DNA from: Enchytraeus crypticus
Lineage: Eukaryota; Annelida; Clitellata; Enchytraeida; Enchytraeidae
DNA length: 64,000 bases
Assembly (NCBI GenBank): GCA_905160935.1
Contig: CAJHZI010000827.1
Location: 447,001-511,000, forward strand
Direction: 5' to 3'
Made by a program: the position numbers and the translations under genes. Positions 29,791 through 49,502 of the stretch are shown one piece after another; the first letter of the stretch is position 1, and each line of letters begins with the position of its first letter. Below the pieces are notes generated by a model. The model did no database searches. It worked only from the letters and a program-made list of their open reading frames with translations, and had not been told where the DNA came from.

Positions 29791-30464
29791 AAAATTCTAG
29801 AATTCCAAGTAGCAAGGCCTTAATGTTGTGTAATTAATACTAGCAATATGTATTATATGTAAGCCTTATATTTGATGAAATGTGAACTGTTATCTGTGGT
29901 ATATCTCGTGAGTTTCCTCCTGTTAGTTCGTTGCACAGCTTTAAAATCATTTTGGGTATCCTTGGAGATTGCTTGGTTACATAAATTTATTTTGATTTCC
30001 TTATCTTTTATAATGCAATTTCGAAAATTCAAATTTTCAAATGTAATGAATAACATACATGTAGAATATTAAGACTGAAACAAGCGAATAAAGTCTTCAA
30101 AAAAAGTTGTTAGAAATAGAAAGTGTAAAATCTTCCATTGCGTTGAATTCTACAGTCCAGGTAATTTATTAATCTACAACGGTACTCGCAATTTAGCCGT
30201 AGTATAATTTATGCTTTATGATCATTACAGGAATAAATCATGAATTCTATGATAGAAATTGATAGCATATGATAACATTTATATGCGAGAATACATTCCA
30301 TGCAGAAAAAGAAATCAGGACAAAATATATGAACAACAGTCAAACTAGGAAGAGAGCAAAGGAATTGTAAATACTCTGTGTACAGTAGAAATCTTAGTCA
30401 GATCACGGTAAAGACTTTAAAAAAGGATTTTAGTAGAAGAAACGGAGTTAAATAAGATTGTGAA

Positions 30465-30611
30465 ATGACGAAACAGAAGCTATCAGCAATTACACTGCAG
30501 TGGTTTCTAATCAAGACGTTCATCTCTCTCACATCAGCGGCAGAGACTTCCAGACCCGTGGTGGAACAGTTCGTCTGCTTCAACACCATCCTCGAAATCA
30601 GTTGCGCTCAG
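30465..30611 (+). CDS. Gene 1 exon 1: signal peptide and start of SUEL lectin
   Basis: 49 codons, ATG to donor CAG|GTATTC, phase 0 exit. The first ~26 residues form a signal peptide with hydrophobic core LQWFLIKTFISLTSAA. The exon ends in VCFNTILEISCAQ, the first beta strand of a SUEL domain with two of its cysteines. Exon 2 continues with the strand carrying the YGR motif, so this short exon supplies exactly the missing half-strand. An in-frame TAA lies just upstream, which makes this ATG the natural start. No 5' UTR intron or promoter can be placed. Confidence 0.82.
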
Positions 30612-31668
30612 GTATTCTTGTCCATCTGAAATTAGATTAATAATAATAATAATAATAATAATTATCATTATTATTATTATTATAATTTTTTATATATTAT
30701 TTTACCCCGGTGTAAAGAACCTGGGGTTTGATAAAAACGATTCAAGCAATACGTGCTGAATCGCCGCCCGGCTACTCGAGGTCATCAATCAGCTTAAAAG
30801 AATTACTGAAGCAGACTGCATTAAATCTTTGCAAAGTCATGGAAAGCCTTTGCCAAAGAAAAGAGGATTATTATTATTATTATTATTATTATCATTATTA
30901 TTATTATTATTATTATTATAAAGGTTTAACGTCAGTTTCCTTGTCCATCTGATATTAGATTTATGACATGATCACTGACATTAACACTGGATGGAGAATG
31001 ATTTGATGAATGATTTTATATTTAGCTAAATTGTATTTTATTGTTTGCCTAAAGCATGCAATTATAATTATATTCTGTCCAAAATCAGGCCACAATGTCT
31101 CTCACTATTCTCAGAGGCAATTAATTCATCAGCTTCGCCAGCTGTGTCTAAACGTATTATTATCATCGCCTTTATTTTGTAATAATTCTTATGATTATTA
31201 GTGTTAAATAGCTGGTAAAGCTAAGGTTAACGTCAGTTTCCTCACTCGAAAGCGATGTCAGTGACGGGCGAGCCCAGGATTTGAACCCGCGCCTACTGAT
31301 CCGCGGTCGAGTATCTTACCGACTTCGCCACTTGCTCCAGTTAGTAAACAGGATTGTTTTCTCAGTGAATGACGCCCCTGCCCAGTAAATGTTAACTTAA
31401 CTTAACAATAATTATACTGGTTAAGGAAGTCACAACGACTTGTAACACCAGTCTTGTGTTAGTCGAAGCTGAGGAAGGCTTAGTGGGCCCATCTCGTCAT
31501 AAGCAGAATCACCCAAGAATAATATAGTATATCAAAAGTAATGCTGTAGATGATTTAAAGAGCCCCTCGTTTGTGCATATGAAGAGGAAAGCGGAAGACA
31601 AAGAAGAGTGGAGGCGTTATATACCATGAACCTGCCAGTAGGCAGTGCACTAAGATATATATATATAT

Positions 31669-31716
<48 letters not shown>

Positions 31717-34700
31717 TATTAGTGTTGTTTACAATTACTGATGATCTTTATTGATATTAACACCACTATTTCAGGACGAGATAATAGTGTTCCACAGGGC
31801 TCGATACGGTCGCAACGACTCAGCGATAGCGGCTCGCTGTGACGTGCCCTACACTCGTAACTGTGATATAGACGTTCATTTCTCGCTCAACCGAGCCTGC
31901 TCGGGCAAGCGCCAGTGCTCCATGGCCGTCAATACAGCCTTCTTCGGCGATCCCTGCGGGTATGAGGAGTTCCTTAAAGTGGCCTACAGGTGCATACCAG
32001 GTACGTGGTCTGTCTATCATGAATGTAACAGCTGGTAAAGATAATGTTTTGCGCCTACTATAAATCAAAATGCTTAACTTTTCGTGCTCGTAAAAACCAA
32101 TATAATTCATTATATTCTAATAACATCATCATCATCATCCCTTTAATCTCAGATTAACTAGGGTCGGGATACGAATAGATCTTCTCCACTCTTCTCTATC
32201 CCACACCATAACATCAGTCAATCTCTATTATAAGCTCTTCCATTCGTTTTTTTTTTTTTTTTTTCACAAATTTCTGGAGTCTAGGCGCTCACCAACCGAA
32301 TGCCCTTTCTGATGTTGGCTTGGAGCTAAGTGCTTTAGTCGCCTCCTAGGACACGTGCAGTCCCCGGTTGTTTTATTCGTCAAACAACGCGGACATAACG
32401 CGTTTAACAACTTAATTGCCATTATATTCTAATAACCCATAAATTTCACTGACTACATTACGTTAGAATTGCTAACATTTGACACGTTGTCGACATAGAC
32501 GTTTCTGTCTACAAGCATCGCCAAGGCTTAGAAATGACATCAGGTGCTTAACCATCACAATCATTTACTTTTAATTGACTTTTTGATCGTGCGATGGTGC
32601 CTGTAGTACTAACCTATATTAACAGACAATGTTTACAACTGCGCGACCTAGCCAGTAGAATTCAACCACAAAGTATCATGCAACTACTGTTATATAACAT
32701 ATTGATAAGAGGTCATGTGCTTTACGTCAAGGTTCAGAAGCACAAGTCTCCATTTCAAGACGACTCAACACATTCGAGCTATCGTCACATAGATTAAGTT
32801 ACTAGTTATTATGAGTTTATTTATATTCAAGAGGGACAGATTAGTTTTCTAAACGAGACTATATAAATTAAATTATAATCTCTGTTCACTAACTTAAGTA
32901 GTAATAGCATTGGTTTGTAGATATCTAGCTTAGGATTTAATTAAATGTGTGTTATGCTGAAATGGTGTTCTCTAAATACCTCTTATTCACCAGGTATCTA
33001 GGTGTAAACCTAATTAGAATATGTGTAGTCCTTATGTTTAAATGTTAGTTCATTATGAATGGATTTAAACTTCTGATAGTGATTTAGTTTTGTAAAATGT
33101 GGGAGCTGTTTCAATTTGTTCAATTACTTCATCATCAGATCTCAAGACTATGATTGAGACTGAGACCATTATTGAACTCCTAGTCTGAGTTTGACACCAA
33201 TTGAGCCATCGAGTCCTGAAGTCCCGATATAACCACTCTTACTCAAGCTCTGCATCTACCAAATACCTCTTGATATCCACAGTTCGAGGTCTCTAGCTGA
33301 ATTCACCAAACGTTACAAATGCATATTATTTGATGGCTTGTAAATGTCTATATTTTCGTTTTTTGTGTAAATGTTCAGATAGAACTGTGACTTAGCTAAC
33401 TGCTTTCCAATCAGATTAATTTGTAATTTATTTTCCTTTCTTTTAGTTTGTTCATTAATTCTAAGATAAATTTTTATTTCGGTTGATTTTGCATTATACA
33501 TGCATACTGGCTCCACTGGCTGGAGCCAGTGGCGAAGTCGGTAAGATACTCGACCGCGGATCAGTAGATGCAGGGTTCAAATCCTGGGCTCGCCCGTCAC
33601 TGACATCGCTTTTGAGTGAGGAAACTGACGTTAACCTTAGCTTTTATGTCATTAATGAGTTATAGACGGTGGTCAGCTAGATAAGATGTGTATCATCTTC
33701 CCTGACGGCCGTTGTTCTGGTGTTTATAAACTGTTTAACACACTGTGTTCCTGAGAATTTTTTAAATTTTATTTCATTTAAATGTTTATTTCTGTTTGCA
33801 TTTGTCAGTGATTTGGTGTTGATGCTGAAATAAACACATATCTATTTCTCTCTCTCTCTCTCTCATCTCTGGATTTGTCTCAATACTGCTCGATGTTGTC
33901 ATGGATGACTGTAGCACTATAGTTGTTTCTAATTGCTACTCTATTTTATTGGTTAGATGTTGAGCTGAGTCGGTAGCATGTATGTATGCTTAATCGAATG
34001 CGAATCAGTAGGTGTAGGGTTCAAATCCTATGCTTGCCATTTCTCTGACATGATTCAGATAAGAAATTGACGTCAAACTCTGCTTTTAGTTTGACTTCTA
34101 TTAGTATTAATTCTGCTGATTTACAATATATAGTTGGGCTTTAATATTTGATGAAAAGGTTTGTACCTGACATCACCGCCTGACTATGAAATTAACTTAA
34201 ACCTTTTATTAGTATTCTTATATAGCTAGTTTTACCCCGTGTTGTGTCCGGGTTGCTTGAAAAACTGACCAACCGTATAAATATGAACGTGTCGTAGAAG
34301 GCTACATAAAAACTAGATGAAAACCAACGTCAGAAAGGTCATTCTGTTGTTGAGCGCCTAGGCTCCAGGAATTGCCACAAAAACTTAACGAATTGTTAAA
34401 CTTTAAAGTCTATTCGTCTCCCGACCCTGGTTAAACTTGGATTTAAGAGAAGAAGATGATGATGATTATATAGCTATTTTTTTCATTTAAACAGACATAA
34501 CTTTTTATACTTGTAGTCTAAAATTTGATTTATAACTATACGTAAAATGTCCGCGAAATCAATCAAAATAAAAAATTGAAATTGTTCAAAATTTGTACTT
34601 GCAAAAATCCTGTTGTACTATAAATTATCTCAGGTCAGATTTGTTAGAACACAATTCTCAATCACTCGACGAACAGTACAATAAGTTGATAAATCAAATT

Positions 34701-37700
34701 CACTCTCAACTTCTTGTAAAATCTCAAGGGGGTTAGTTGAAGTCAACTCTCCGGGGTTTGACCTCCACCCTTATCCTTCTCACCCCTCCCCCACTCAGCT
34801 TCCTCCTCTACTCCTAAGCCTAGGTCTTCACGGTGTTTGCTGGTGAATCATTTAAACGGATTTTCGAGCGGACTATTGAATGGGTAGGCGAGGTTGCTTT
34901 GTCCAATGCATGTCTTCATTTCTCTTTCAGCCGTTCGCTCTATCATAATAACGATTAAAGCGATAAAGCCAATAAAAGAAACGTGTATGCGTAATAAGCT
35001 ATATCGATATGATGCGATATTATCTGGTACTTTTACTTCTAATGGTCGATTGTACATAATTCCCTTTGTTACGTTCGGTTGTTTGAAGAAAAGACTAACC
35101 TGTAACTTCACGTTTAGTAGAAGCACTTAGATCCAAACCAACGTCAAAAAGGGCATTAGATTGGTGATACGGTTCTAGTGTCTAGGCTCCGGAAACTGCT
35201 GCAAATTTTTTCACAAAGAATGGAAGAGACAATATGGGAATGACGGCTGATAAGGTATCGGGCAGAGATGAATGGAGAAGTTCTAATCGTATCATAGTTA
35301 AACTGATAACATAAGGAAGATGATGATAATGCTCTATTGAACATATTATATGCACGATGCAGGTGAATCTTATTGTAATGGGCATTTTACGCGGATCTTT
35401 AATAATATTGTATACATTTGGTACGTAGTACTACATGTATACAATTTTGTTAAAGATTCCTTAATTAGGACGCTAGGTTTGGACCACGCTATTCCTTAAT
35501 TAGATTCCTGCAATAGGACGTGGAGTAAGACAAGGTTGTATAGCATTTCGCTGCTGCTGTTTAACATTTACGCTGAGGCAATGATGGAGGAAGCCATGGA
35601 AGACTTGGAAGAAGGAATAAAAGTAGGAGGGAATTTGCTACAAGATGTACGATTTGCAGATGACCAAGGAATGGTAGCGGGCAGCGAGATTGGATTGCAG
35701 AAGATAGTGGATAGTCTGAATGATACGGCCCTAAGATATGGCATGAAGATTAATATAAAAAAGACGAAGGTTTTGAGAGTGTCCAATAATAAAGGTGAAG
35801 TTAATATCATAATAAATGGTACGAAATTGGAACAGGTAAGGAGTTTCAAATATTTGGGTCATACTATAACCGATGACGGGAAATGTGAGACGGAAATATG
35901 CAGTAGGATTGCACAAGCAAAAGCGGCCTTTGGTAGTAGAAAAGAACTATTAACAAAAAGTCTAAAGAAAGACACATAGATAAAGATAGTGAAGACTTTG
36001 GTTTGGACCACGCTATTGTATGGATGTGAAACAAGGACCTTAAGGAAGGAAGATATTAGGAAACTGGAGGCATTGGAAATGTGGATTTGGAGAAGAATGG
36101 AGAGGATTAGCTGGACTCAAAAGGTTACAAATGAGGAAGTCATGGAGAGAGTTGGCACAGATAGACAGTTGATAATGTATTAAGAAATAGGAAGAAGAGA
36201 TGGATAGGACACATTCTAAGGGGGAAGGTCTATTAAAAGAGGTCATAGAAGGTAGAATGGAAGGAAAAATAGGCAGGGGCAGGCCGAGATTAGGTATGTT
36301 AGATGATTTTAAAACCCACTCATATGTGGAAATGAAAAGGAAGGCGGAAGACAGAGAAGATTGGAGGCGTTATATACCATGGACCTGCCAGTAGGCAGTG
36401 CACTAAGAGAGTAGTACGTATTACTGACCAGATCGATGGATTAGTTGGTTGGCTCTTTGATTGATTTCTTGATTGGTTGATTGACTAACTGATTGACGAT
36501 TAATTCGTTGATTGATTGATTGTTTGATTAATTGACGATTGATTGATTGATTGATTGATACGCTAGGATCGAGTGTTTTAAGCGGATGTACCGGCTCGGG
36601 ACAACATGATATAAGACTGTATGACCGGAGTTATGTGGCGAGTCCCAACTATCCTGGAAAATACTTCATGGACGCTGAATGTCGCTGGAAGGTTTGTACA
36701 TGGAATCATTAAGGTGGAGTCCGTTGCATAGATGGTAAAGTTTCTGAGTGATCAGTAGGCGCAAGGTTCTAATCCCGTTAACGTCTCACTGGAATAATGC
36801 TGGTAAAATACTAGTACTATTGGTGTAATACTGGTATAATGCTGTTATAATACTGGTGTAATACCAGTATAATGCTGGTATAATACCGGTATAATGCTGT
36901 TATAATACTGGTATAATACTGGTAAAATGCTGGCATAATGCTGGTATAATGCTGGCATAATACTGGTATAATACTGGTATAATGCTGCTTTAATACTGGA
37001 ATAATACTGCTTGAATACTGGTATTATGCTGGTATAATGCTGGTATAATGCTGGTATAATGCCGGTATAATGCTGGTATAATACTGGTATAATACTGGTA
37101 TCTCTTTCTCTTAGTGCACTGCCTACTGGCAGGTCCATGGTACATAACGCCTCCACTCTTCTCTGTCTTTCGTCTTCCTCTTCATTTCTACAAATGAGTG
37201 GGTCTTTAAATCATCTAACATACCTAATCTCGGCCTGCCCCTGCCTATTTTTCCTTCCATTCTACCTTCTATGACCTCTTTTAATACACCTTTCCCCCTT
37301 AGAATGTGTCTTATCCATCTCTTCTTCCTATTTCTTAATACATATATCAACTGTCTATCTGTGCCAACTCTCTCCAGGACTTCCTCATTTGTAACCTTTT
37401 GAGTCCAGCTAATCCTCTCCATTCTTCTCCAAATCCACATTTCCAATGCCTCCAGTTTCCTAATATCTTCCTTCCTTAAGGTCCATGTTTCACATCCATA
37501 CATTAGCGTGGTCCAAACCAAAGTTTTCACTATCTTTATCTTTGTGTCTCTCTTTAGAATTTTTGTTAGTAGTTCTTTTCTACTAACAAAGGCAGATTTT
37601 GCTTGTGCAATCCTACTGCATATTTCTGCCTCACATTTACTATCATCGGTTATAGTATGACCCAAATATTTGAAACTCCTTACCTGTTCCAATTTCGTAC

Positions 37701-40700
37701 CATTTATTGTGATATTAACTTCACCTTTATTATTGGACACTCTCAAAACCTTCGTCTTTTTTATATTAATCTTCATGCCATATCTTAGGGCCGTATCATT
37801 CAGCCTATCCATTATCTTCTGCAATCCAATCTCGCTGCCCGCTACCATTCCTTGGTCATCTGCAAATCGTACATCTTGTAGCAAATTCCCTACTACTTTT
37901 ATTCCTTCTTCCAAGTCTTCCATGGCTTCCTCCATCACTGCCTCAGCGTAAAAGTTAAACAGCAGCGGCGAAATGGAAAATACTGGTATAGTATTGGTAT
38001 AATACTAGTATTATAATGGTTTACTTGTTCTATGGGAAATTGATCTAGGCATCTAATGTGGTCATTTCAATCCTTATTTAAATAATCAGCTAGTAAGTAT
38101 TCAATTATTTAACCATACAGTCGATCATTAATCAATTATCTATTCTATAAATCAACTAATCACTTAATTTACCGGTTCAATCAATCGATAAGCTCCACAA
38201 ATACAATCTATAATTAATTAATTTGTAAATACAGGCGATCATATTTAAAAGCACTTCCATTGGTTAAATCAACAGCATAATATTGCTTTCTCGCTACTCT
38301 CGTGGGTTCGAGTCCCAGCCGCGCTGATCTGAGAGTGCAATCTCGGACATTCACTGGACTGGTTACACGGATAATGGAATAAATTGCCTAACGGTTTAAA
38401 CATGTGATATTAAAAGTGGTAGATATCAACGTAGTTGATCATTTCACTATAATGCGTGTTAAATTTTATTTCTTTTCTAAATATGATGTTTGTTAAACCA
38501 ACTAGAGCAACGCTAACAATTCCATATCCAGACAAATTCGCAAACATTTCAGATAGCGGTTCAGAGAAGCCAAACTCTTCGCTTGATCATCTACGACTTC
38601 GAACTGGACGTTAAACGGTTTGGAAAGTGCCACGAGTACCTGGAGATCTCGTCACGTGATCGTGTTTACTTTCACGATTGTGGGTCACTGGGTAAACAAG
38701 TCATTGACCTTGACACACATATCGCTCTCGTGACCTTTAAGACAGGACTGGCCAGTCTGGCACAGAGAGGATTTCTGCTCTACTTTGAAGGTGAGATCGT
38801 TGTGTTAACCATCTGATTAACTTGCCGTTAGGAAATACAATCAATCAATTACAAAGAGGATCAGAGGATTGTCGAGTAGAAATATCAATAAATACTAACT
38901 AAATAACGTTTTCCTGTGTTGTGTACGGGTTGCTTGAAGAATAGCTTGAAGATCAGCCTTGTAAATATGTACGTGTCATAGAAGGCGACTTAAAAACAAG
39001 ATCCAAACCAAAGGCAGAAAGCGTTAATTATTTGATAGACTTCATATCATGTCGTGATCATCCTGGGGCTGGTTCTAGAAAAATATTTCTCTATGATGTT
39101 CATCCACAATACTATATTCTTTGCCATTTCCTCAATGTTCATTCTTATTCTTTCTTCTGTTCTGCCATAAATTCTAACTCCAGCAGCCTTCAAGTCTTCT
39201 TCGAGGCAGTCCTTCCATCTTCTTTTAGGTCTTCCCGTTATTCTTTTGACGTCTTCTTTAAATGTAGTCTTTTACGATACGTGCATTCTACGGTTGCTTT
39301 GTTTTGGAATGGCTTCAGCACATCCGCTGAATGTTGAAGAGTGGCTGGAGCCAGTGGCCACATCGGTAAGATACTCGACCGCGGATCAGTATGTGCGAGG
39401 TTCAAGTCCTGGGCTCGCCCGTCACTGACATCGCTTTCGAGTGAGGAAACTGACGTTAACCTTAGCATTACCAGCTTGTTAAACTCTTTTCCCTTGTTTT
39501 GATACTTTCCGTGGCAAGCTAAAAAGCCATCTCTTCCCGCCATTGGTCTAAATATAGACCCGCTTGCCTTGGATCATGGACTTGCACCGTTTTGACCTCG
39601 CTTTCTCTTGTGGTCACTGTGTACTCAGTTGTCATCATATGGTGCTTTGGCGCCTGTTTATGCAGAATCTGTAAGAGACGTCCCTGACATTGCCTTATGG
39701 CGAGGAACCGGACGTTAGATTCTTATTGATTTATTTATTTATCGATTGATTGATTATTTCAGCGGCGGAGCAGGATTGTCGGGATCTGGAGGTAGTATCC
39801 TACTCCAGGATCAGCTACTACATCTCTAACGACGTGCTCTACGCCAATCTCACCTGTGACCCTGGACACGTGATCTCAGGATCAGAGTCCTATGAGTCCA
39901 GGAGTAGACTGATTCCGTGCATCGGGACCCACTGGATCTCTCCCAACCTGTCCTGCGTGGGTTAATATTAGAATTATTCCATTCATTGTGTTTTTAATTT
40001 ACTATTAACTATTCTTTAGTGCATACTATTATATATACATGTAGTATATAGTAATACTACATGTATGTATATATAGTTTAACAATCTTTATATTTATCCC
40101 GATCCAAGCTAAGCTAAGATTCAAGGAAAGATGATAATTTATTCATAGGATTTATTATAATTATTTTGTTTACAGTATTCTGTAGTCATCATCATCTCTC
40201 CTTTAATCCCAGTTTAACTAGACTCGCGATACGAATGGACCTTCCGAGTGTACATTACGTTACCTAACTCCACATTACACTGCATAGTAATGTGTTAGTG
40301 CTCTTTCACTGCACTATTATCGATATATTGCTCTAATATCAATTGTGGCATGGCTGTTCTTACTCTTACCGTTATTTTTGCATTCAATGAATTTCGATAT
40401 ATTGTTATCAATGTTATTATTATTAACTTATTGCTTTATTTCAATATTTATATTAATGTCAATAACATCATGTAGTGCGTAATGTGTAATGTTTACAGTT
40501 TAATGTTTAATATGACATTTTTAATGTTTAATGTTGTCATGTTAATAGAGGAATGACTGATGATATGGTGATCGCCAGAGAAAAGGTCCATTCGTAGCCC
40601 AAGCCTGGTTAAAAGAGGATTTAAGGGAAGATGATGATGATGATCATGAATGTTCTAATGTATAATGTTTAATAGATTATATTACGCAAACGCATCTCTG

Positions 40701-43437
40701 TACTTTATAACAATTACACACGGAGTATAAACAACAACATAGGCCCTTTTGTATTTATGTCATTCACTGTTTCGAGTGAGGAAACTGACGTTAACATTAG
40801 CTTTACCAGCTTTTTGTATTATCAAATTAGCCAGTAAAATGATAAGAATGTTTTCTTGTTACATCACCCATTCAGTGACATCAAAGAAATTTTACTTTAT
40901 CATAATTGACATCGCGAGATTTTGTTAGAAAAGTAAACACGTATTATAGTCAAACGATCAGCTATGTTGATATCTATCACTTTCAATACCACATGTTTAA
41001 ACCGTTAGACAATTTAGACCATTTTCCGTATAACAAGTCCAGTGAATGTCCGATATTTTACTCTCAGATCATCTCGTGGCTGGGATTCGAACCCACGAGG
41101 GTTCAATTCACCTCAGGATCTCTCATTTAAAACTTCATAACGTTATCCTACGCTATTAAAATTATAAAAGGAACATCATGTTCTTTTCCACAGCCACATC
41201 TTCCATCAGTCCTGCTGATAGAGGTGGAGGTAAGGACTCTAGGGGGAGGGTGGGTTCCGGCTCTTCAGCATTAGAGGGAGGCGACTCGTTCAAAAATAAG
41301 GGAAGGGTTGAGGGAATTACCCCTTCATTGCCTACAGTGGAAGCAACTGGCGGAAATATTAGGAAACTGTCAACGTCACTTATAGGTTAGACATTGAGCA
41401 ATATACATATTTTCTTTGCATTTTCTATTTCGTTTTATTTACTACTTTTAATTTTAAATAATAATATTTATCCCGAGTCCTTGATACACTGGGATTCAAG
41501 GGAAGGTGATAATGATGAATTTAAATAACAATATTGAATTCTTTTACTTAACAAGTAACAAATAAAGAATTCTTCAATTCTTGTTATTGGTCTTGTTTTT
41601 GTTCTTGTTCTCGTTCTTTCTGTTCTTGTTCTTCTTCTTGTTCTTGTTCTTGTTCATGTTGTTATTGTTATTCTTTCTTCTTCTTCTTCTTCTTCTTCGT
41701 TGGAGCCAGTGGCGATGTCGATAAGATATTCGACCGCAGATCAGTGTGTGTGGTGTTCAAATCTTGGGCTCCCCTGTCACTGACATTGCTTTCGAGTAAG
41801 GAAACTGACCTAAACTACTACGTAAAGTTCAGTGTCTGTTCCAAGCCTGAGTGGTCATAATCATAGTGGTCATTTCTCCATTTGTCCATTGTTACTCTGA
41901 TCATTTCTGTTTTCTTTATCTGCATCCATTTACTTAGACTCCTAATGCACGTAATCCGCTCTTGATGCTTACTTGTTTTTGTCGTCTATTTATCCCGTTA
42001 TTGTGGTATTTTCAACTATTTTGTTCCGCAAATTTTGTCCGAGAATCTTCATCTAATGGCGTCGTATTCGATTCAATCAATCACGACTGGCTAACATTCT
42101 TTGAAAAACTTCTTCATTTATAAAATGATCTATATAAGATATGTGGAATGTTGCCGCCCTATGATCTGTTCAGAACGCAAAGAACTGATGATGAAGAAAA
42201 TCATATATTAATGACTATAATGTAAGGAATGCGCAATATTATCATAACCACAGCTCTATTGCCTGCAGTTTATTTTCCATTGCAGAATAATTTATTTAAA
42301 TAAGGAATTTACGAAATAAACAAAATTTACTTTTTCCAGGTCTGGTAGTCAGCATGCTCTCTGCCATATTTTTCGTTCTGCTACTTCTCTCAACGGCTCT
42401 CTTCATTAGCAAGAGGTTCGAGACAAATTTTTATTCGAATTTCATTTTGCGGTAGTAGTTTATTTACAGTAAACCTCAACGAAATTGCTATGATATCGTT
42501 ATTCGTGATAATTTAAATAGCTTGTATTCAAAGTCAACCTGATGCCAATAAAATGTTAAATAAACGGTGTTTATTAGTGAGAAAGGCTAGCCGAAACACG
42601 CTGCAGTGACATCTAGCATGCATCATCATGCATCATATCATGCATCTAACATGCATCATCATCATCATCATCATCATTATCATCATCATCATCATCATCA
42701 CCCTTGAATCTCAGTTTAACTAGGGTCGGAAACGAATAAACCTTCACCTTTCCATTCGTTTTAGAAAATTGTTCAGCAATGTCTGTATCGTTGGCGCATA
42801 CCAAACGAAAGACTTTTCTAACGTCGATTAGGATCTTAGTGCTTACGACATGTGCAGTCAATTCCTCCACAACAGGGACACAAGCAGCTATATTTGACTA
42901 CCTATTTCAAACAATTTTCGTCATAATGAATTGGGTTGTAAATAAAAGAATACGACTGCATGAAACTCAACAAAAATAAATAATAATGAAAGTTTTAAAC
43001 AAGTACATGAAATAAAAGTAAGCTACCGATACTGAGTGCTCGTTACATTGAGAGGTTCAAATCAGAGGATTCACTTACTAGGTGAGACTTAAAGGACTAC
43101 AGGCCTTAACGCTGTTATGAGAGCTACATGTACAAGGAACGATTTGAGGAATTTCTGTATAAGGTTGAATAAATAACACCGCTGCCGTTTACTTGTGTCC
43201 TTCAAAACACTTAGCATCTGCGGACAAGTAGGGATAGAAGAGAGAGAGAGAGAGAGAGACTGAGAGAAAGGAATATAAAGAGAGAGAAAGAGAGAGAAAG
43301 GGGGCGAGAGAGAAGGACAGGACACCGTACAAAGAGAGATAGAAAGAGATATAGAGATAAAAAGAGAATGAAAGAGGTAATATTACGAAAGTGCGAAGAA
43401 AAAAGAAAAGGGACCGAGAGAGAGATAGCGAGTGAGA

Positions 43438-43469
<32 letters not shown>

Positions 43470-46400
43470 TTGAGAGAGAGAAACATAACGATTGGTAACA
43501 GGGATAATTAATTAATTGACTAGAACTTCTCAAACGATTCAAACAGTTTATATTAAATGGTGATATTGATAGTCATAGATAAAAAAGCTAAGGTTAACGT
43601 CAGTTTCCTCACTAGAAAAACGATATCAGTGACGGGCGAGCCTTGGACTTCAACCCCGCACACACTAATCCGCGATCAAAAAGCTTACCGACATCGCCAC
43701 TGGCTCCAGATAATTAAGATCTTCTCAGACGATCATTTGACCTTAGTATTTAACTCTAACTCAGAATTATGCATTGGATTGAAATTTTCGTAGACTAATC
43801 TCTAGATCAGGAGAGAAGGGAAGAGAAGGAGAGAGAAGGGGAAAGAAGGAGAGGAGGGAGAGAAGGGGAGAGAAGGGGGGTTGGGGAAGAGGGAGCACGA
43901 AAGAGTTTCACGGAGTCATCAGTTTGACTGTTGATTCGACTTAATGCTTTTACCGGATACTTTCAGATAGGACTTTAATCCGGTTAATCCTGCGATATAT
44001 TCACATTGGAGTCAATCTGGCGTAAATTTCTGTCTGAGACCCGAATCACTGGAACTTCTATGTATATATAAATAAAAAATCTATAGATTATACAGATGGT
44101 AATTTAGAAGAACAAAACGATACATTTTCCAAAGAAATTTAGTAGAACGTATAAAAAATTTTCCGAAAAGATATAGAAGAGCACATGTATAAAATAGCGA
44201 AGGAAATATAGAAGAACAAATCCTTAAATTTTCCAGATATACTGTAGATATAGAACAACAAATGGCTGTGATCCAAATAGACATTAAGATAGGCATGAAC
44301 TGATCAAGAAAATGATGATCAAGATAAACTAATGAGTTAATAAGGTGTTATTAGGTGTTATTTTAGTTATATATTTGTGTAGATACATGTACGTATGAAT
44401 TTTGCTTAAGAAAACACATATGGGTGCGGATGCGTATCAGGGTGTTGGTTAATTAATTAAATTTAAATTCGTTACAATCTCAGCCGAGATTAAGATGGTA
44501 TGGGCCTATTGTGAGAAAGGCACATTAGGATGTAGTAAAGAGAGTTTGGAGGGAAGACCTGGATGTTAAGCTAGAGAGAGGTAGACCACAACTGACGTGG
44601 GATGCGTTGAGTAAGAAGGACATGAAAAATAGGGAATTGACTAATGATATGGTGTGGGACAGAGAGGTTGGAGAAGGTCTATTCTTATCCCGACCCTATT
44701 TAAACTGGGATTAATCGCCTCTTACTACACTTTCAGTTAATCGAGGACAGATTTCTGAAAGACGTAATATTTGGAAGAATATAAATGAAAAGAGGATAGA
44801 GAAAGACCGAGACAAGGAAAAATTGATGACTTTTACTAACACATTCATATACTGATATGAAATGAAAAGCTGGGGATGGAATTGGATGGAAAAATAATGT
44901 GAACCACGGACCTGCAGTAAGACTGAGAGCCAACAGATATTAGTAGTAATGAAGCATCAGGTGCTTGGAGAAAATGGCTTGTGGAGAAAATGGCTTATGG
45001 AGCTATGTGGAATCACGTCCTGAGCGTCACGCTTGATCTCTGTAACCCTGGAATAAATCTGAAGGTCGACTTAATCTAATACTCAAAAAGCGTGACATCC
45101 ACTGGCTGCTACTACGTTGTTCCAGTCTTCTACTGTAGACTGGAACAACGTGGCCTCAGTGTATAAGACTGGAACAACGTGGCCTCAGTGTATAAGACTG
45201 GAACAACGTGGCATCAGTATATAAGACTGGAACAACGGGGCATCAGTATATAAAACTGGAGCAACGTGGCTGGCCTCAGTGTATAAGACTAGAACAACGA
45301 AGCCTCAGTGTATAAGACTGGAACAACGGGGCATCAGTATATAAAACTGGAACAACGTGGCCTCAGTATATAAGACTGCAACAACGTGGCCTCAGTGTAT
45401 AAGACTGGAACAACGGGCATCAGTATATAAGACTGGAACAACGTAGCCTCAGTATATAAGACTGGAACAACGGGGGGGGGGGATTCGGAGGATTTTCAGA
45501 AGAATCGATTCAATTTCCGAGTCGTGATTAAAAGCGCAGCGGTCGCAAATTGGACCAATTTTGCGCCACCGTTGACCGCCGTTGTTCGCAAACAGACCGC
45601 TAAGTGGCCTCAGAGGCTTGCCCCATGCAGCTCACCCGCAATGCAGACAAAACACTCGACCGTTTCCATAGTGCGGCATGTAGAGAGTCGTTTAGAAATC
45701 ATGGGGGGAGGGGGTGGTACAGGGCGGACATGGGATTTCATATGAAATTCTGCAGAACTTTATCATTTAGCAAAGTGTAAAGCCGATTTTAACGTCAGAT
45801 TCATCTGTTGAAAGCGATATCAGTGACGGGAAAGCCCAGGATTTTAACCCCGCACGTACTAATCTGCTGTCGATATCTTGCCGATATTGCCACATGGCTC
45901 TAGCCAGTGGCTCTGTTAACTTAATAAATAAAAATAAAATAAATAATGAATATATAATGACTTAACTTAATAAATAATGACTTAACTAATTTTAAAATTA
46001 TCAACATAAAGGGTACATATCATAGTAATAAGACACAAATTATTAAAATAGAACAGAAGTGAATATTCTGAAGCTAACCCATTGCAAAAGGAATTAAATT
46101 TAGATATCAATCAGTTTTGAAAATGCTACAGAAGACATGTTACACCGTACGTTCAGAGGACATATATTTCTTATTTTATTTAATTGGTTTAAATTTGTAA
46201 CTAAAATTTTCTATTGAGCAACATGTGACTGAATTGTTGTTCTGTTTAAATTGAAACTACTAATTACGGGGTCAATGTCTTAGAACTACTTTAAATGGGA
46301 ATTTGTTATTTTCATGTCATTCTTCTTTCTATTTCTTTTTTCATTTGTCTGATCATGTTGAATTTGCCGATTATATCGAGATTATGTTGCTACAAGGCGG

Positions 46401-48719
46401 ATAGTCAAAAAGGTTCATAGCTTGTTATTCATCAAACAGTAAAAAAGTTCGTATCAATGAGGCTAATATCGTCCGAATGATTTGGTCTATTATGTTGTCC
46501 CTAAATTTCTCGTAAGCCAAGCTTTACCATTTGACTCGATATTTCCGCTATTTACTAAAATTATAATGGTGACCGTCACTATATTATTTTCTTTAGGTAT
46601 GTCGTTGTAATGTTCATTAAATTGAGAAAATTTAATTCTTGTTAAAAGTATTTTACACAAATACAATGTCAAAAGATATGTTAAAATAGATGTAAATGAT
46701 AGGTTGCTACCAGAAACTAGTATGAACTTACAAGAAACTTGAAGAACCATCTCGTTACTGATAGGTTATCAACATACTGATAAGCTATAAATACACTGAT
46801 AAGTCATCAATACACTGATAAGCTATCAATATACTGATACGTTCTCAATATACTGAAAAGTTTTAAATATACTGATAAGCTATTAATATACTGATAAGCT
46901 ATCAACATACTGATAAGCTATTAATATACTGATAAGCTATTAATATACTGATAAGCTATCAATATACTGATAAGCTATAAATACACTGATAAGCTCTCAA
47001 CATACTGATAAGCTATAAATACACTGATAAGCTCTCAACATACTGATAAGCTATCAATATACTGATAAGCTATAAATACACTGATAAGCTCTCAACATAC
47101 TGATAAGCTATCAATATACTGATAAGCTATTAATATACTGATAAGCTATCAATATACTGATAAGCTATCAATATACTGATAAGCTATCAATATACTGATA
47201 AGCTATCAATATACTGATAAGTTCGCATTACAAAAACCATACACTTCAAACGAGGTTTAGCAATATATCGTAATTTTCCTATGTATTTCATGTTATAACA
47301 GTTTGGACAGAGTCTGCAAGAGACGTCCATGATATTGCGTTATGGCGAGGAACTGGACGTTAAATTCTTACAGATTTGTTTATTGATTGATTAATTTATT
47401 GTTTTATTTTACATTTGACCAGAAGACAGAAGGCCAACGTTGAGCGACATCAAGCGATCAACAACCTTCAGTTCCAAACAAGATCTGATCTTCTTCTGTC
47501 TAAATGCTCCACCAATGGTCGTCCCTCTCACGGGATTTCTGTGCTGAAGAAAGCCTGCGCCAACGACTACAACCTAAGCAGCCAATCTCGTCTACCACTG
47601 TTCAGGGGCTGCGCCTCCGATGAATATTTCCTCCCCCCTCAGACGTCCATCGGCCTGACATTCTGTTCCTCGAGGGGACCGAGTCGTTACAGCACCCTAA
47701 CTAGACCTGAGAACCCACTGGCAAGCTACTCCGGTTCCAAGTTAGGACACTGGGGTGGATATGAACTGGGATATGAACAAGGTAACGGTGAACGAAATGA
47801 ATCCATGTCGGGAATGGGATTGAGTCAGAAGAGTGGATTTGGAAGTTGCCAGGGGGTAATGGAGACGAGTGATCCAGTAGAGCATTCTACTGATAATCCG
47901 GACTTTAATCATCTCTGCAGTTCTGGAGGTTGGAATGACTCCAGTTTGAACTGGTCTGATAGAAACGATCGGCATGAAAGTTACAATGAAAGTTTGACTA
48001 ATACAGAGGAAAGAAGCGATGGGAATATTGAATCATTTCCTAAACAGCGCGAAGACAGAATTGGACAGGTGAAATATGCGACTTCCACTCGAAAATCTGG
48101 AAGAAGTGGAAAAGGAGACAGTTTGGTGCTTTCAGATGAAGACTTTCGTGCTAACCAGATGGAATACAAGACTGTAGGTGGAACAGATTTAGTTGGAGAA
48201 CAGGGAAGATTCGAGACGCACCAGACAGAAGATGTGATAAACATCAAAACTCCTCTCCTGAAATCTTCAAGATATCGAGCCCCTCAAGAACTCGAAGGTA
48301 GACATATGAGACAGCAACAACAAGATCCGCATTTAGGAGGAACTGGCTTTGCTACCGGTGATCACATTCTAAAAGTCGACAACTTTACTAGTGCAGGTTT
48401 TCTAAATGATAAAATGAAAACAGGAAATCGTTCTAATTTCGCAGAAACACCGGAATTTCTTGACGGGATTTACCATAATAAACCGAGAAGCGTTATGAAC
48501 GGAATTCTAGACGCGAGAGTGACCCAAGAGCAAGACTATGCCAAGAACTCAAACCATCAGTACATAGATCACAGCAGATATACACTAGGCTGCAGCAATT
48601 CAACCGAGCTGTCTGTCCCAGGATGCTTCGGGATCCACCACAACATCATGGACTCTGGAATTGGGGTGGCTGAGGATGAGGAAGCAGAAACGGTGCAGCT
48701 TCAATCAATGGAGACGTAG
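30465..48719 (+). CDS. SUEL-lectin/CUB/sushi single-pass membrane protein, 8 exons, 832 aa
   Basis: Spliced CDS: 30465-30611, 31775-32000, 36567-36691, 38553-38790, 39763-39960, 41194-41385, 42340-42415, 47423-48719. The lengths sum to 2499 nt, i.e. 832 codons plus TAG. Every junction has GT/AG and matching phases (0,1,0,1,1,1,2). Layout: signal peptide ~1-26; SUEL-type lectin ~37-122 with eight Cys; CUB ~132-245 with four Cys (132, 163, 192, 209); sushi/CCP ~251-310 with four Cys and a Trp; Ser/Gly-rich linker ~312-375; TM helix ~377-398 followed by SKRR; cytoplasmic tail 402-832. Such modules bind carbohydrate or protein ligands, so a cell-surface receptor or adhesion role is inferred, not shown. 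The ATG follows an in-frame TAA 15 nt upstream. Introns 1-7 are packed with SINE, LINE and minisatellite sequence. I do not recognise a named orthologue; EVA-1 and latrophilins share the SUEL domain but not this architecture. Confidence 0.88.
30640..30925 (-). repeat. RT6 3' fragment between (ATT)n tracts, in intron 1
   Basis: 30714-30870 matches the 3' part of RT6 at 52998-53155, including the terminal hairpin (CCCCGGT...AACCTGGGG). ATT microsatellites flank both sides (30640-30690 and 30868-30920). Confidence 0.75.
31210..31340 (-). repeat. S1 SINE in intron 1
   Basis: Near-complete minus copy: AAAGCTAAGGTTAACGTCAG to GACTTCGCCACTTGCTCCAG, with B box GGATTTGAACCC. Confidence 0.85.
31344..31713 (+). 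mobile_element. Composite element: unrelated 5' unit plus RT1 3' end, (AT)n tail
   Basis: The 5' unit (CAGGATTGTTTTCTCAGTGA, TTAGTCGAAGCTGAGGAAGG, ATCTCGTCATAAGCAGAATC, TATATCAAAAGTAATGCTGT) is fused at about 31545 to the RT1 end from GATGATTTAAAGAG through the hairpin to GCACTAAGA, then (AT)n. The same fusion occurs at 61761-62042. This copy has ~62 extra bp (31384-31445). It lies just upstream of exon 2. Confidence 0.8.
31775..32000 (+). CDS. Gene 1 exon 2: body of SUEL-type lectin domain
   Basis: 75 codons plus 1 nt. Acceptor CACTATTTCAG, donor CCAG|GTACGT. Family hallmarks are A.YGR near the start (RARYGRND), six Cys, and the closing signature DPCGYEEFLKVAYRC, which matches the DPC..xxK.L.V.Y.C end of Gal_Lectin domains. 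Composition is clearly richer in GC than the surrounding intron DNA, as expected for an exon. Confidence 0.9.
32118..32405 (-). repeat. S5 SINE-like element in intron 2
   Basis: Minus copy: CATCATCATC tail, CAGATTAACTAGGGTCGGGA, TACGAATAGATCTTCTCCAC, then AATTTCTGGAGTCTAGGCGC, CGAATGCCCTTTCTGATGTT, GCGGACATAACGCG. 32406-33505 is otherwise unique. Confidence 0.8.
33506..34105 (+). repeat. Two S1 SINEs in intron 2
   Basis: 33520-33645 is a good plus copy whose 5' end is preceded by a short inverted ACTGGCTCC (33506-33514 versus 33522-33530). 33955-34105 is a decayed plus copy (GAGTCGGTAGCATG, TAGGGTTCAAATCCTATGCT, GAAATTGACGTCAA). Between them lies a CT run (33847-33864) and an R8 fragment (GCTCGATGTTGTCATGGATG). 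Confidence 0.75.
34225..34475 (+). repeat. S5 element in intron 2
   Basis: CCCCGTGTTGTGTCCGGGTT, GACCAACCGTATAAATATG, GTAGAAGGCTAC, AAACCAACGTCAGAAAGGTC, CTCCCGACCCTGGTTAAACT, then GATGATGATG. 34476-35129 is unique. Confidence 0.85.
35130..35335 (+). repeat. S5 element, partial
   Basis: ATCCAAACCAACGTCAAAAA, GGGCATTAGATTGGTGATAC, TAGGCTCCGGAAACTGC and the end TTAAACTGATAACATAAGGA with AGATGATGATAATG. Confidence 0.65.
35519..36411 (+). mobile_element. RT1 non-LTR retrotransposon, 3' RT portion, broken; upstream of exon 3
   Basis: 5'-truncated within the RT domain (GVRQGC). Contains the catalytic box VRFADDQGMVAG, MKINIKKTKVLRVS, YLGHTITDDGKCE, TLLYGCETRTLRKEDIRKLE, and the C-terminus ending PWTCQ-stop. 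A frameshift lies near 35550, a nonsense TAG at 35977 replaces an AAG codon in the sister copy, and a 1-nt deletion lies near 36173. The ORF stop TAG sits in the 3' hairpin CCTGCCAGTAGGCAG, and the element ends TGCACTAAGAGAG. At the 5' edge, GGTTTGGACCACGCTATT (35475) repeats an internal RT1 segment (36000), a small rearrangement. Confidence 0.88.
36440..36560. repeat. (GATT)n tract before exon 3
   Basis: Imperfect GATT/GATTGATTGA repeats end six bases before the exon 3 acceptor region and stand in for its polypyrimidine tract. Confidence 0.85.
36567..36691 (+). CDS. Gene 1 exon 3: first half of CUB domain
   Basis: 2 nt plus 41 codons, phase 1 in and phase 0 out. Reads GCTGSGQHDIRLYD then YVASPNYPGKYFMDAECRW, the SPNYPxxY signature and second Cys of CUB domains. 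Acceptor ACGCTAG at 36566 follows a GATT repeat with a weak pyrimidine tract, yet it is the only nearby AG giving an open, phase-correct frame. Donor is AAG|GTTTGT. Two oppositely oriented RT1 retrotransposon copies flank this exon. Confidence 0.8.
36785..37100. repeat. 11-12-bp minisatellite in intron 3, left part
   Basis: About 27 units of CTGGTATAATA with CTGGTATAATG variants. The array resumes at 37977-38022 after the inserted RT1 copy. Confidence 0.9.
37101..37976 (-). mobile_element. RT1 non-LTR retrotransposon, 3' RT portion with intact frame
   Basis: The minus-strand frame is open from the 5' truncation (FNFYAEAVMEEAMEDLEE) to PWTCQ-stop at 37123, with no stop or frameshift, so it is the youngest copy here. 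It carries FADDQGMVAG, YGMKINIKKTKVL, YLGHTITDDSKCE, TLMYGCETWTLRKEDIRKLE and GRGRPRLGMLDDLKTHSF. The 3' end is hairpin, GCACTAAGAGAAAGAGA. It is inserted in the CTGGTATAATA minisatellite and opposes the plus copy at 35519-36411. Confidence 0.9.
37977..38022. repeat. Minisatellite, right part
   Basis: ATACTGGTATAGTATTGGTA and AATACTAGTATTATAATGG continue the array interrupted by RT1. Confidence 0.75.
38285..38470 (+). repeat. S2 SINE in intron 3
   Basis: CTCGTGGGTTCGAGTCCCAG (B box), AATCTCGGACATTCACTGGA, CTGGTTACACGG, TAACGGTTTAAACATG, GATCATTTCACTATAATGCG. It lies ~85 bp upstream of exon 4. Confidence 0.85.
38553..38790 (+). CDS. Gene 1 exon 4: second half of CUB domain
   Basis: 79 codons plus 1 nt. 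Acceptor AACATTTCAG, donor GAAG|GTGAGA. It begins IAVQRSQTLRLIIYDFELD, continues with the third and fourth CUB cysteines (GKCHEYLEI and FHDCGS), and ends with the TFKTG...GFLLYFE strand typical of CUB C-termini. Phase 0 in matches exon 3 exactly. Confidence 0.88.
38905..39025 (+). repeat. S5 fragment in intron 4
   Basis: TTTCCTGTGTTGTGTACGGG, GTCATAGAAGGCGACTTAAA, ATCCAAACCAAAGGCAGAAA. Confidence 0.65.
39030..39300 (-). mobile_element. RT5 reverse-transcriptase C-terminal fragment
   Basis: The minus strand encodes RITGRPKRRWKDCLEEDLKA then AGVRIYGRTEERIRMNIEEM, the GRPxxxWxDxxxxDLK signature at the C-terminus of many LINE polymerases. Short and decayed. Confidence 0.65.
39345..39478 (+). repeat. 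S1 SINE in intron 4
   Basis: Full plus copy: GGAGCCAGTGGCCACATCGG, AGGTTCAAGTCCTGGGCTCG, CACTGACATCGCTTTCGAGT, GAGGAAACTGACGTTAACC. It starts inside a small palindrome GTGGCTGGAGCCA. Confidence 0.88.
39490..39745 (+). repeat. S3 SINE, longest copy
   Basis: TTGGATCATGGACTTGCACC, TCTTGTGGTCACTGTGTACT, GGTGCTTTGGCGCCTG, GAGACGTCCCTGACATTGCC, TTATGGCGAGGAACCGGACG, tail TTATTGATTTATTTATT. It ends 18 bp before exon 5, so its tail lies next to the exon 5 acceptor. Confidence 0.8.
39763..39960 (+). CDS. Gene 1 exon 5: sushi/CCP domain
   Basis: 2 nt plus 65 codons plus 1 nt, a symmetric 1-1 exon as is usual for a shuffled CCP module. It holds four Cys in CCP spacing (residues 251, 277, 298, 310), an NLT glycosylation sequon before the second Cys, CDPGHVISG, and a Trp shortly before the last Cys (HWISPNLSC). 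Acceptor GATTATTTCAG, donor GTGG|GTTAAT. Confidence 0.88.
40080..40655. repeat. Several S5/RT3 3' tails in intron 5
   Basis: 40085-40135 (+), 40185-40260 (-, CAGTTTAACTAGACTCGCGA) and 40555-40650 (+, AGGTCCATTCGTAGCCCAAG, GATGATGATGATGATC) share the AACTGGGATT...GATGATG end. Confidence 0.65.
40764..41160. repeat. S1 tail (+) and S2 SINE (-) in intron 5
   Basis: 40764-40815: TTTCGAGTGAGGAAACTGAC and GTTAACATTAGCTTTACCAG. 40945-41155: minus S2 with GGGATTCGAACCCACGAGGG, CAAGTCCAGTGAATGTCCG, GTATAACAAG. Confidence 0.78.
41194..41385 (+). CDS. Gene 1 exon 6: Ser/Gly-rich extracellular stalk
   Basis: 2 nt plus 63 codons plus 1 nt (1-1 symmetric). Acceptor TTCTTTTCCACAG, donor TATAG|GTTAGA. Low-complexity S/G/T-rich residues without cysteine form a juxtamembrane linker between the sushi domain and the membrane helix. 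No domain is recognised. An internal GGTAAG at 41228 could act as an alternative donor but would change the phase. Confidence 0.75.
41468..42200. repeat. Intron 6 cluster: S5 tail, (CTT)n, S1 (+), RT2 (-), RT4 (+)
   Basis: 41468-41515 S5 tail. 41575-41700 TTCTTG/TTC microsatellite. 41701-41813 plus S1 (TGGAGCCAGTGGCGATGTCG). 41825-42115 minus RT2 C-terminus (TTCCAAGCCTGAGTGGTCAT, CTGCATCCATTTACTTAGAC). 42135-42200 RT4 end (GAATGTTGCCGCCCTATGAT, CAGAACGCAAAGAACTGATG). Confidence 0.75.
42340..42415 (+). CDS. Gene 1 exon 7: transmembrane helix
   Basis: 76 nt, phase 1 in and phase 2 out. Acceptor TTACTTTTTCCAG. Encodes LVVSMLSAIFFVLLLLSTAL then FISK, a clean ~22-residue membrane helix ending in basic residues, which predicts type I topology. 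The exon is too short for ordinary ORF listing and was found from its phase and its hydrophobicity. Confidence 0.82.
42600..42865 (-). repeat. S5 element with (CAT)n tail, intron 7
   Basis: CATCATCATC tail at 42655-42700, CTTGAATCTCAGTTTAACTA, GGGTCGGAAACGAATAAACC, body CATACCAAACGAAAGACTTT, end CGACATGTGCAGTC. A GCATCATGCATC duplication lies at 42618-42655. Confidence 0.75.
43225..43490. repeat. (GA)n purine tract, intron 7
   Basis: GA-rich from 43238, with pure runs at both ends. Leu/Ser ORFs on the other strand are artefacts. 42866-43224 has nothing recognised. Confidence 0.88.
43582..43710 (-). repeat. S1 SINE, intron 7
   Basis: AAGCTAAGGTTAACGTCAGT, GATATCAGTGACGGGCGAGC, TTCAACCCCGCAC, GACATCGCCACTGGCTCCAG. 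43711-44479 contains a purine-rich stretch (43808-43880) and AT-rich unique DNA. Confidence 0.85.
44480..44718 (+). mobile_element. RT3 reverse-transcriptase C-terminal end
   Basis: Encodes RLRWYGPIVRKAH, then VWREDLDVKLERGRPQLTWD and LSKKDMKNRELTNDMVWDRE, a classic LINE C-terminus, ending CCCGACCCTATTTAAACTGG and GATTAA. The same 3' end terminates S5 elements. One in-frame stop is visible after KAH. Confidence 0.75.
44725..44940 (+). repeat. Degenerate RT1 3' end
   Basis: GACTTTTACTAACACATTCA, GATATGAAATGAAAAGC, then CCACGGACCTGCAGTAAG, where the hairpin is shortened. Confidence 0.5.
45115..45475. repeat. 29-bp minisatellite, intron 7
   Basis: About 12 units of GACTGGAACAACGTGGCCTC then AGTGTATAA, with GGGGCATCAGTATATAA variants. 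It ends in a G run (45471-45481). Confidence 0.92.
45482..45745. other. GC-rich block with internal inverted repeats, intron 7
   Basis: GCAGCGGTCGCAAATTGGAC, CAATTTTGCGCCACCGTTGA, CCGCCGTTGTTCGC: AATTGGACCAATT and GCGGTC/GACCGC can pair. Frame 45524-45745 has no domain. It is unlike the repeats around it. Confidence 0.4.
45777..45912 (-). repeat. S1 SINE with short snap-back end, intron 7
   Basis: AGCCGATTTTAACGTCAGAT to GCCACATGGCTCTAGCCAGT then GG. CCACATGGCT and AGCCAGTGG form an imperfect inverted 5' end. Confidence 0.75.
46750..47222. repeat. 19-bp minisatellite, each unit with GATAAG, intron 7
   Basis: About 25 units of TACTGATAAGCTATCAATA with TATAAATACAC and CTCTCAACA variants. It ends ~200 bp before exon 8. 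45913-46749 is AT-rich DNA. Confidence 0.93.
47305..47395 (+). repeat. S3 3' portion next to exon 8
   Basis: GAGTCTGCAAGAGACGTCCA, TGATATTGCGTTATGGCGAG, GAACTGGACGTTAAATTC, TTGATTGATTAATTT. The T-rich tail lies directly upstream of the exon 8 acceptor, as S3 does before exon 5. Confidence 0.8.
47423..48719 (+). CDS. Gene 1 exon 8: 431-residue cytoplasmic tail and stop
   Basis: The terminal coding exon is open for 1297 nt to TAG. The first base completes AG|A (Arg), so the tail starts R-RQKANVERH just inside the membrane. It is Ser/Asn/Gly/Glu-rich and probably disordered, with no folded domain recognised. Candidate short motifs include YSTL and YKTV (YxxPhi type), NPDF (NPxF type), IYHNKP (YxN, Grb2-SH2 type) and DEYFLPP. 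These are pattern matches only. The C-terminus QSMET is not a class I PDZ ligand. Confidence 0.88.
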
Positions 48720-48794
48720 CTAATTAGTGTGACGTCTTGTAGCTTCGGTTGTGCCACAACAGAGTTCGCTGAAGCATAATTTAGTTGGCTTAAT

Positions 48795-48995
48795 TAGTTA
48801 ATCTTACATCATCAGTTCCTTGCGTTCTGTACAGAATATAGTGCGGCAACATTCATCCATTCGTTTCAATCATCAGCAATCTTCACAGCGTCTTCCCATG
48901 AAATGTTTAATGCTCTCAAATCCTTATTGATCATGCTTAGCCAAGTACTTCTAGGTCTTCCTCGTTTCCTTTTTCCTTGATATACTTTCTTAGTT
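48795..48995 (-). repeat. RT4 reverse-transcriptase 3' end
   Basis: In reverse it encodes KRGRPRSTWLSMINKDLRAL then WEDAVKIADD and ends TGTACAGAACGCAAGGAACT, GATGATG. Related copies: 42135-42200 and 57505-57640. Confidence 0.7.
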
Positions 48996-49370: not shown

Positions 49371-49502
49371 CAAAGCCAATGTTAACGTCATTTTCCTCAC
49401 TCGGAAGCGATGTCAGTGTGTGGCGAGCCCAGGATTTTAACCCGCACATAGGCCTACTGATCCGCGGTCGAATACCTTACCGACATCGCCACTCTCTTCA
49501 AC
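49371..49502 (-). repeat. S1 SINE
   Basis: AAGCCAATGTTAACGTCATT, GGCGAGCCCAGGATTTTAAC, TACCGACATCGCCACTCTC. CCACT...AGTGG (49489-49507) hints at a snap-back end. 49503-49839 is AT-rich. Confidence 0.8.

Follow-up and report, generated by a model that had tools for sequence, protein, structure and literature searches.

An eight-exon animal gene predicted to encode a type I single-pass receptor with a SUEL-CUB-CCP head, one of at least seven such genes in its genome

SUEL domains occur on receptors, for example on latrophilin and on the guidance co-receptor EVA-1. Three kinds of membrane protein have been described as bearing the domain, namely latrophilin, the PKD1-like proteins and EVA-1 (PMC2430599). 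The latrophilin-1 domain was solved with rhamnose (Vakonakis et al. 2008, PMC2430599). Its sugar binding requires the glutamate at position +1 from the first cysteine and Lys120, and all of the substitutions tried dramatically reduced or abolished binding (PMC2430599). According to the same report, the sugar-site residues are often missing in membrane SUEL proteins, for which non-sugar, protein ligands were proposed, and the C-terminal SUEL domain of EVA-1 lacks both of them; whether receptor-borne SUEL domains bind sugars or proteins was an open question (PMC2430599). In EVA-1, both SUEL domains are needed to bind the protein MADD-4, and EVA-1 acts with UNC-40 (PMC4133157).

A membrane protein that unites SUEL, CUB and CCP was not described in the literature searched, among the papers listed and at the level of titles and abstract openings. 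CUB proteins and rhamnose-binding lectins were named as separate genes (PMC6626399). CUB, CCP and Gal_Lectin are among the domains of the Oikopleura house proteins in a figure legend (PMC3390340); as the legend is silent on whether they co-occur, the combination may exist in secreted proteins. The parts are known, and their combination on a single-pass protein did not turn up in the literature searched; public proteomes may well hold unnamed orthologs.

The window analysed here is a stretch of 64,000 nucleotides (C724:447001-511000) from Enchytraeus crypticus. It contains an intact eight-exon animal gene, and the existence of the eight-exon model was confirmed. The exon borders were set from the sequence by GT and AG at every intron border and a single open frame. 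The exons are as follows:

30465..30611, forward strand: exon 1, with the start codon, a probable signal peptide and SUEL cysteines 1 and 2
31775..32000, forward strand: exon 2, the remainder of the SUEL domain (Pfam SUEL 40.3 bits from this exon alone)
36567..36691, forward strand: exon 3, the first half of the CUB domain, which by itself scores 15.5 bits against Pfam CUB
38553..38790, forward strand: exon 4, the other half of the CUB domain, which by itself scores 15.2 bits against Pfam CUB
39763..39960, forward strand: exon 5, the CCP (sushi) domain, 198 nt
41194..41385, forward strand: exon 6, a Ser/Gly/Thr-rich stalk, 192 nt, placed by GT-AG borders and an open frame
42340..42415, forward strand: exon 7, the transmembrane helix and the first basic residues
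47423..48719, forward strand: exon 8, the cytoplasmic tail of about 431 residues and the stop codon

The eight exons in one frame that the sequence-only reading had proposed were reproduced with GT-AG introns and a coding total of 2499 nt. This corresponds to 832 residues and a stop; the 833 codons given earlier include the stop codon. The introns measure 954 to 5007 bases, and an in-frame TAA lies at 30453, 12 bases 5' of the ATG. For the last three joins, two of the border combinations tried had GT and AG throughout, and both were in frame. The exon 8 acceptor has two options 3 bases apart (47423 or 47426), with a difference of one residue. Exon 7 has two more in-phase donors (42451 and 42454), and 42415 is favoured by the donors of the paralogs described below.

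The sequence-only reading had stressed the agreement of all seven junction phases. The frame does hold; however, exons 5 and 6 have lengths that are multiples of three and are in phase 1 at both ends, and dropping either or both preserves the frame. The inclusion of these two exons is thus beyond the reach of the phase test, and what makes the model strong is homology that spans the joins. Aligned to 5h4s, the SUEL part includes residues 38-49 and shows no gap at the exon 1/2 join (residues 49/50). The cubilin alignment of the CUB domain is ungapped across the exon 3/4 join (residues 166/167), as is the MASP-1 alignment across the exon 4/5 join (residue 246). Joining exons 3 and 4 raises the CUB score from 15.5 and 15.2 bits to 39.4 bits, and neither exon passes alone.

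The least certain exon is exon 6, which lies outside the parts confirmed by homology. Its slot holds 16 frame-compatible open candidates, the model's own included. Its GC content is 0.50, a value reached by 1.9% of intron windows of equal size. Codon usage did not distinguish the exons from introns, even where homology proves the exon: the score of exon 2 was equalled or beaten by 19.7% of intron windows, and the scoring therefore has no power here. In two of the three trainings the score of exon 7 did not exceed that of typical intron windows. The period-3 signal was 4.9 in exon 8 and 5.5 in exons 1-5 joined, with a mean of 1.4 in 96 control windows; the support that it lends is weak, as five of the controls reach the exon 8 value. 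With 442 codons, the stop-free frame of exon 8 is longer than any other in the window, whichever strand is read. The gene shows how far raw sequence alone can resolve genes with exons down to 76 bases.

Domain and helix prediction on the joined protein, a check of the kind proposed by the sequence-only reading, returned Pfam SUEL and CUB and one hydrophobic helix. The SUEL match scored 39.8 bits (cut-off 31.4, E=6.1e-10), and the eight cysteines of the domain are present (Cys 38, 47, 71, 79, 91, 97, 110 and 122). The CUB match scored 39.4 bits (cut-off 21.4, E=8.1e-10), with its four cysteines at Cys 132, 163, 192 and 209. A nematode CUB model was the third Pfam match, below its cut-off. The 16 cysteines N-terminal to the helix divide into eight SUEL, four CUB and four CCP cysteines with no remainder. 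The closest solved relative of the CUB domain was cubilin, with MASP-1 second. The calcium ligands of calcium-binding CUB domains look incomplete in the family alignment, to which little weight is given.

The CCP exon alone did not reach the Pfam Sushi model; it came closest with a sushi-like model, which gave 13.4 bits where the cut-off is 27. A phmmer search of the exon against solved structures returned only CR2 (E=0.024 and 0.029) and an unrelated enzyme. In the CCP alignment of six sequences, from the window gene and five paralogs, four cysteines, one tyrosine and a tryptophan are invariant. The family CCP profile matched the CCP of MASP-1 at E=8.5e-5 over all 65 positions, the sole molecule matched up to E=1. 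With four cysteines, a tryptophan between the third and the fourth, and likeness to known CCPs, the identity of exon 5 as a CCP domain is taken as established.

The N-terminal signal stretch is moderately hydrophobic, with a 12-residue maximum of 1.42. The best 19-residue hydropathy is 2.92, at residue 374, and the twelve top hydrophobic windows all fall within residues 370-381; the basic stretch KRRQK follows directly after the helix. The protein would be a type I single-pass receptor at the cell surface. The domain order, the exon borders and the single membrane helix given by the sequence-only reading stand. A motif scan of the tail against shuffles gave chance-level counts except for one NPDF (NPxF), which is reached by 5.7% of shuffles, and no signalling route is therefore indicated. 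When the tail was searched against its own genome at E up to 10, only the tail itself was matched. When 30001-49502 was scanned with Pfam for further domains in its three forward frames, nothing but RVT_1 and SUEL exceeded the cut-off, a negative result that is limited in reach because both CUB halves were missed by the same scan.

The genome searched comprises 524 Mb in 802 contigs. With the 832-residue protein as the query, 54 of 130 candidates were scored, and the 55 matches among them included eight in the window gene, 15 at six paralogous loci (C762, C412, C259, C689, C684 and C450) and 32 elsewhere. The identity at the six loci was 55-64% for SUEL and 40-54% for the CUB pieces; the matches elsewhere concern the SUEL part, at 26-38% identity. 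In the 30 kb retrieved around each of the six loci, the order SUEL, CUB, CCP recurred at every one. For the CCP domain, tblastn sufficed in five, and a profile built on the other members detected it in C689 (32.5 bits, E=7.6e-9 in the frames of the seven loci). The positions of the exon 1/2 and exon 3/4 joins are uninterrupted in all six paralogs, which fixes these two joins.

Downstream of the CCP domain, a hydrophobic exon was present at each of the six loci, chosen by eye among the candidates per locus. The marks used were an acceptor opening a phase-1 codon, basic residues after the helix and a GT donor. The phase-1 codon is glycine if the preceding exon ends in G. In C689 the basic residues after the helix are Lys-His. 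The window gene and five paralogs have a phase-2 donor. C689 has a phase-0 GT first and a phase-2 donor two bases beyond it. A long stop-free frame of 203 to 487 codons follows the helix in five paralogs, and no long frame was found in C412 within the 4 kb examined. C684 and C689 share with exon 8 a tail exon that opens with R-Q at a phase-2 acceptor; the tail exons of C762, C259 and C450 have no such start.

Across the 21 pairs, identity was 50-66% for SUEL, 41-56% for CUB and 25-39% for CCP, and the tree had long tip branches of 0.46 to 0.88 with weak supports (22 to 61). These therefore look like old paralogs on different contigs rather than recent copies. At least seven such predicted receptors, alike in their head, are encoded in the genome, and the window gene's tail has no further match there. 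The paralogs independently confirm much of the model, although exon 6 lies outside the confirmed parts.

Of 230 first-look candidates for SUEL in the genome, 150 were scored, which gives a minimum of 139 matches at E<=0.001. Dense clusters lie at about 1.08-1.40 Mb of C405 and about 2.71-2.78 Mb of C454, which suggests a tandem expansion of other SUEL genes; a survey of Aplysia gave three SUEL genes (PMC9334734). Two further observations concern individual paralogs. In C689 (C689:985001-995000, about 3798-5153), a 452-codon frame places roughly 300 residues between a hydrophobic N-terminus and the SUEL domain. In C259 (C259:36001-46000, about 4817-4876), a partial second CCP-like stretch with a stop, 60% identical to exon 5 over 20 residues, lies upstream of the CCP exon and is perhaps a decayed exon copy.

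Among solved structures, the SUEL domain comes nearest to those of genuine rhamnose-binding lectins (5h4s, E=4.3e-21; CSL3, E=4.6e-13), which are closer than the latrophilin domains (E=2.1e-8 to 1.9e-5). The residue at +1 from the first cysteine is phenylalanine in six of the seven family members and tyrosine in the other. The column aligned to Lys120 of latrophilin-1 holds glutamate in all seven, a placement that depends on the alignment because loop 2 here is one residue shorter than that of latrophilin. Neither the glutamate at +1 nor the loop-2 lysine was found in any member. The "SUEL lectin" of the sequence-only reading is accordingly correct as to the fold, which Pfam recovers, but the residues needed for sugar binding are replaced, and "lectin" is a fold name only. 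The SUEL domain has probably lost sugar binding. As a counterpoint, the argument depends on two residues, homology to one well-studied domain and one alignment, and another sugar or another mode of binding is possible.

The best explanation, in which we have moderate confidence, is that the gene encodes a type I single-pass adhesion receptor or co-receptor. It would have a SUEL-CUB-CCP head, a short stalk, a helix and a long tail without known domains, and would belong to a family of at least seven members with a protein ligand. The disulfide-bonded head would bind protein, not sugar. By analogy with EVA-1, LEV-10 and Neto, the ligand could belong to an adjacent cell, to the matrix or to a partner receptor that shares the membrane, and the divergent tails of the paralogs may couple one type of head to different intracellular partners. 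If this holds, seven receptors of the same genome with a conserved head and without the sugar residues would make a clear-cut example in favour of the protein-ligand view, and their unlike tails a test bed for one head feeding several pathways. A broader joint reading, which we regard as speculative and rather unlikely, is that the family forms a further membrane-SUEL clan beside latrophilin, the PKD1-like proteins and EVA-1. The sugar pocket would have been rebuilt as a protein-ligand site from Phe/Tyr and the invariant glutamate, at least seven different tails would read related cues into different pathways, and a hairpin around exon 3 could switch the product between a receptor and a soluble SUEL protein.

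The main rival is an immune pattern-recognition receptor, in which SUEL would bind microbial sugars, the CUB-CCP pair would be complement-like and the paralogs would form a recognition repertoire. The kinship of the SUEL domain with rhamnose-binding lectins is consistent with this, as are the large number of SUEL matches in the genome (at least 139) and the bacterial agglutination by one bivalve SUEL lectin that is cited in PMC8878817. So is the likeness to MASP-1, second to cubilin for the CUB domain and the sole match of the CCP profile, with a CUB-CCP pair like that of MASP and C1r/s. However, both key sugar-binding residues are replaced in all seven members, and the joined protein has no protease domain. 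Furthermore, the seven paralogs lie on seven contigs and combine a conserved head with divergent tails, the opposite of a variable-head repertoire. We consider the immune reading improbable.

Exon 3 lies between two LINE fragments with RVT_1 matches, in opposite orientation:

35544..36410, forward strand: left arm of the LINE pair (RVT_1 fragment), in intron 2, 867 bases
37107..37975, reverse strand: right arm of the LINE pair, in intron 3, 869 bases

The arms are 95.9% identical over 869 aligned positions, and Pfam RVT_1 was matched in the frame 35500-35979 of the left arm. Exon 3 sits inside the 696-base loop, with the arms 156 and 415 bases away. In the predicted fold of the 2432-base stretch, 842 of the 867 bases in the left arm are base-paired to the right arm, and the pairing of exon 3 stays inside the loop. 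The fold energy is -1780 kcal/mol; three other stretches of this length gave -594, -628 and -542 kcal/mol. The LINE unit has at least 39 copies outside the window at 95-97% identity and with nearly the same ends (among the best 40 of 7824 candidates). When exon 3 was skipped in silico, a stop followed after 144 residues, giving a SUEL protein without the helix.

The inverted pair may influence the splicing of exon 3. A second rival, somewhat less probable again, builds on this and takes the gene to be splice-regulated, with the LINE pair causing exon 3 skipping or circularisation and the skipped mRNA encoding a secreted SUEL protein of 144 residues. The long, nearly identical arms, the strongly favoured fold and the early stop are all in line with it. 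Exon-flanking inverted repeats are stated to facilitate backsplicing in PMC4479058, a report that itself concerns another route. Against it, the fold is a prediction from the sequence, the premature stop would make the mRNA prone to decay, and intronic repeat pairs are often neutral. It also concerns regulation and leaves the receptor reading in place.

The least probable rival, that the chain is partly wrong because exon 6 or the exon 7-8 join is a frame-matching artefact and the true stalk or tail is different, draws on the phase neutrality of exon 6 and its 16 frame candidates, on the 5 kb of intron 7 and on the uninformative codon usage, but the R-Q tail starts at phase-2 acceptors in C684 and C689 and the phase-1 start of the hydrophobic exon in all six paralogs, as in exon 7, leave mainly exon 6 open to it and make it quite doubtful.

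Introns 1 (30612-31774) and 3 (36692-38552) are absent from all six paralogs, which suggests that they were gained in the window gene, a suggestion tempered by the long branches of the tree and its supports (22 to 61). Mobile introns (introners) were considered for these two introns and are not supported, as the matches elsewhere cover internal repeats and stop short of the borders. The longest single match inside intron 1 spans about 280 of 1163 bases (among the best 40 of 8054 candidates), and that inside intron 3 about 890 of 1861 bases (among the best 40 of 7824 candidates).

Other features were noted in the window. A dispersed repeat ending in GAGGAAACTGACGTTAACCTTAGC has 11 matches at up to 3 mismatches, with 0 expected, including copies at 31220, 33618, 39443 and 43587. 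By eye, its upstream part looks like a tRNA-derived SINE; ARAGORN made no tRNA call for the repeat. Tandem arrays of short units occupy 46756-47221, 45137-45475 and 36788-37101 in introns of the gene, and 59843-60221. A reverse transcriptase fragment (RVT_1, 62.0 bits) lies on the forward strand at 23035-23622. A 342-codon open frame on the forward strand at 56442-57470 holds an IGFBP domain (Pfam PF00219, 34.2 bits) and, by eye, a hydrophobic start after its first ATG; it is probably an exon of another secreted-protein gene.

Compared with known systems, the window protein shares single features with each. Like the latrophilins (ADGRL), it has an N-terminal SUEL domain on a membrane receptor. 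Latrophilins have seven membrane helices, a GAIN domain and further domains, whereas the window protein has one helix and matched only the SUEL and CUB models of Pfam, with no GAIN match. The soluble rhamnose-binding lectins (5h4s, CSL3) provide the closest solved SUEL domains; they carry SUEL repeats and, where aligned, mostly a glutamate after the first cysteine and the loop-2 lysine, whereas the window protein has a single SUEL domain with both replaced. With MASP-1, C1r and C1s it shares a CUB followed by a CCP, and the alignment runs from CUB2 of MASP-1 into CCP1. MASP-1, C1r and C1s are secreted proteases with a C-terminal serine protease domain. The window protein, in contrast, has a membrane helix and an N-terminal SUEL domain, and no protease domain was matched by Pfam in the joined protein or in the three forward frames of 30001-49502. 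Drosophila CG42613 may also carry a SUEL domain. It resembles the window protein as a CUB-domain plasma membrane protein and differs in being called homologous to TLL1 (PMC12634045); the accessible part of PMC6219715 contained nothing on its domain content. Bdelloid rotifers have large multidomain membrane-associated SUEL proteins (PMC8878817).

LEV-10, SOL-2 and Neto are likewise type I single-pass proteins, and their CUB domains organise neurotransmitter receptors (PMC9083331). They differ in having LDLa and two to five CUB domains, whereas the window protein has one CUB, a SUEL and a CCP domain, and no LDLa match was found by Pfam in the joined protein. EVA-1/EVA1C (C21orf63) is alike in being single-pass with extracellular SUEL. 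It carries SUEL twice and reaches only a short way into the cytoplasm (PMC4133157), whereas in the window protein a single SUEL is joined by CUB and CCP domains and the tail has about 431 residues; neither a second SUEL domain nor a short tail was found. The view that this architecture lies outside the named families stands for all those compared here by domain content, but it is not a lone case: the gene is one of at least seven in its genome.
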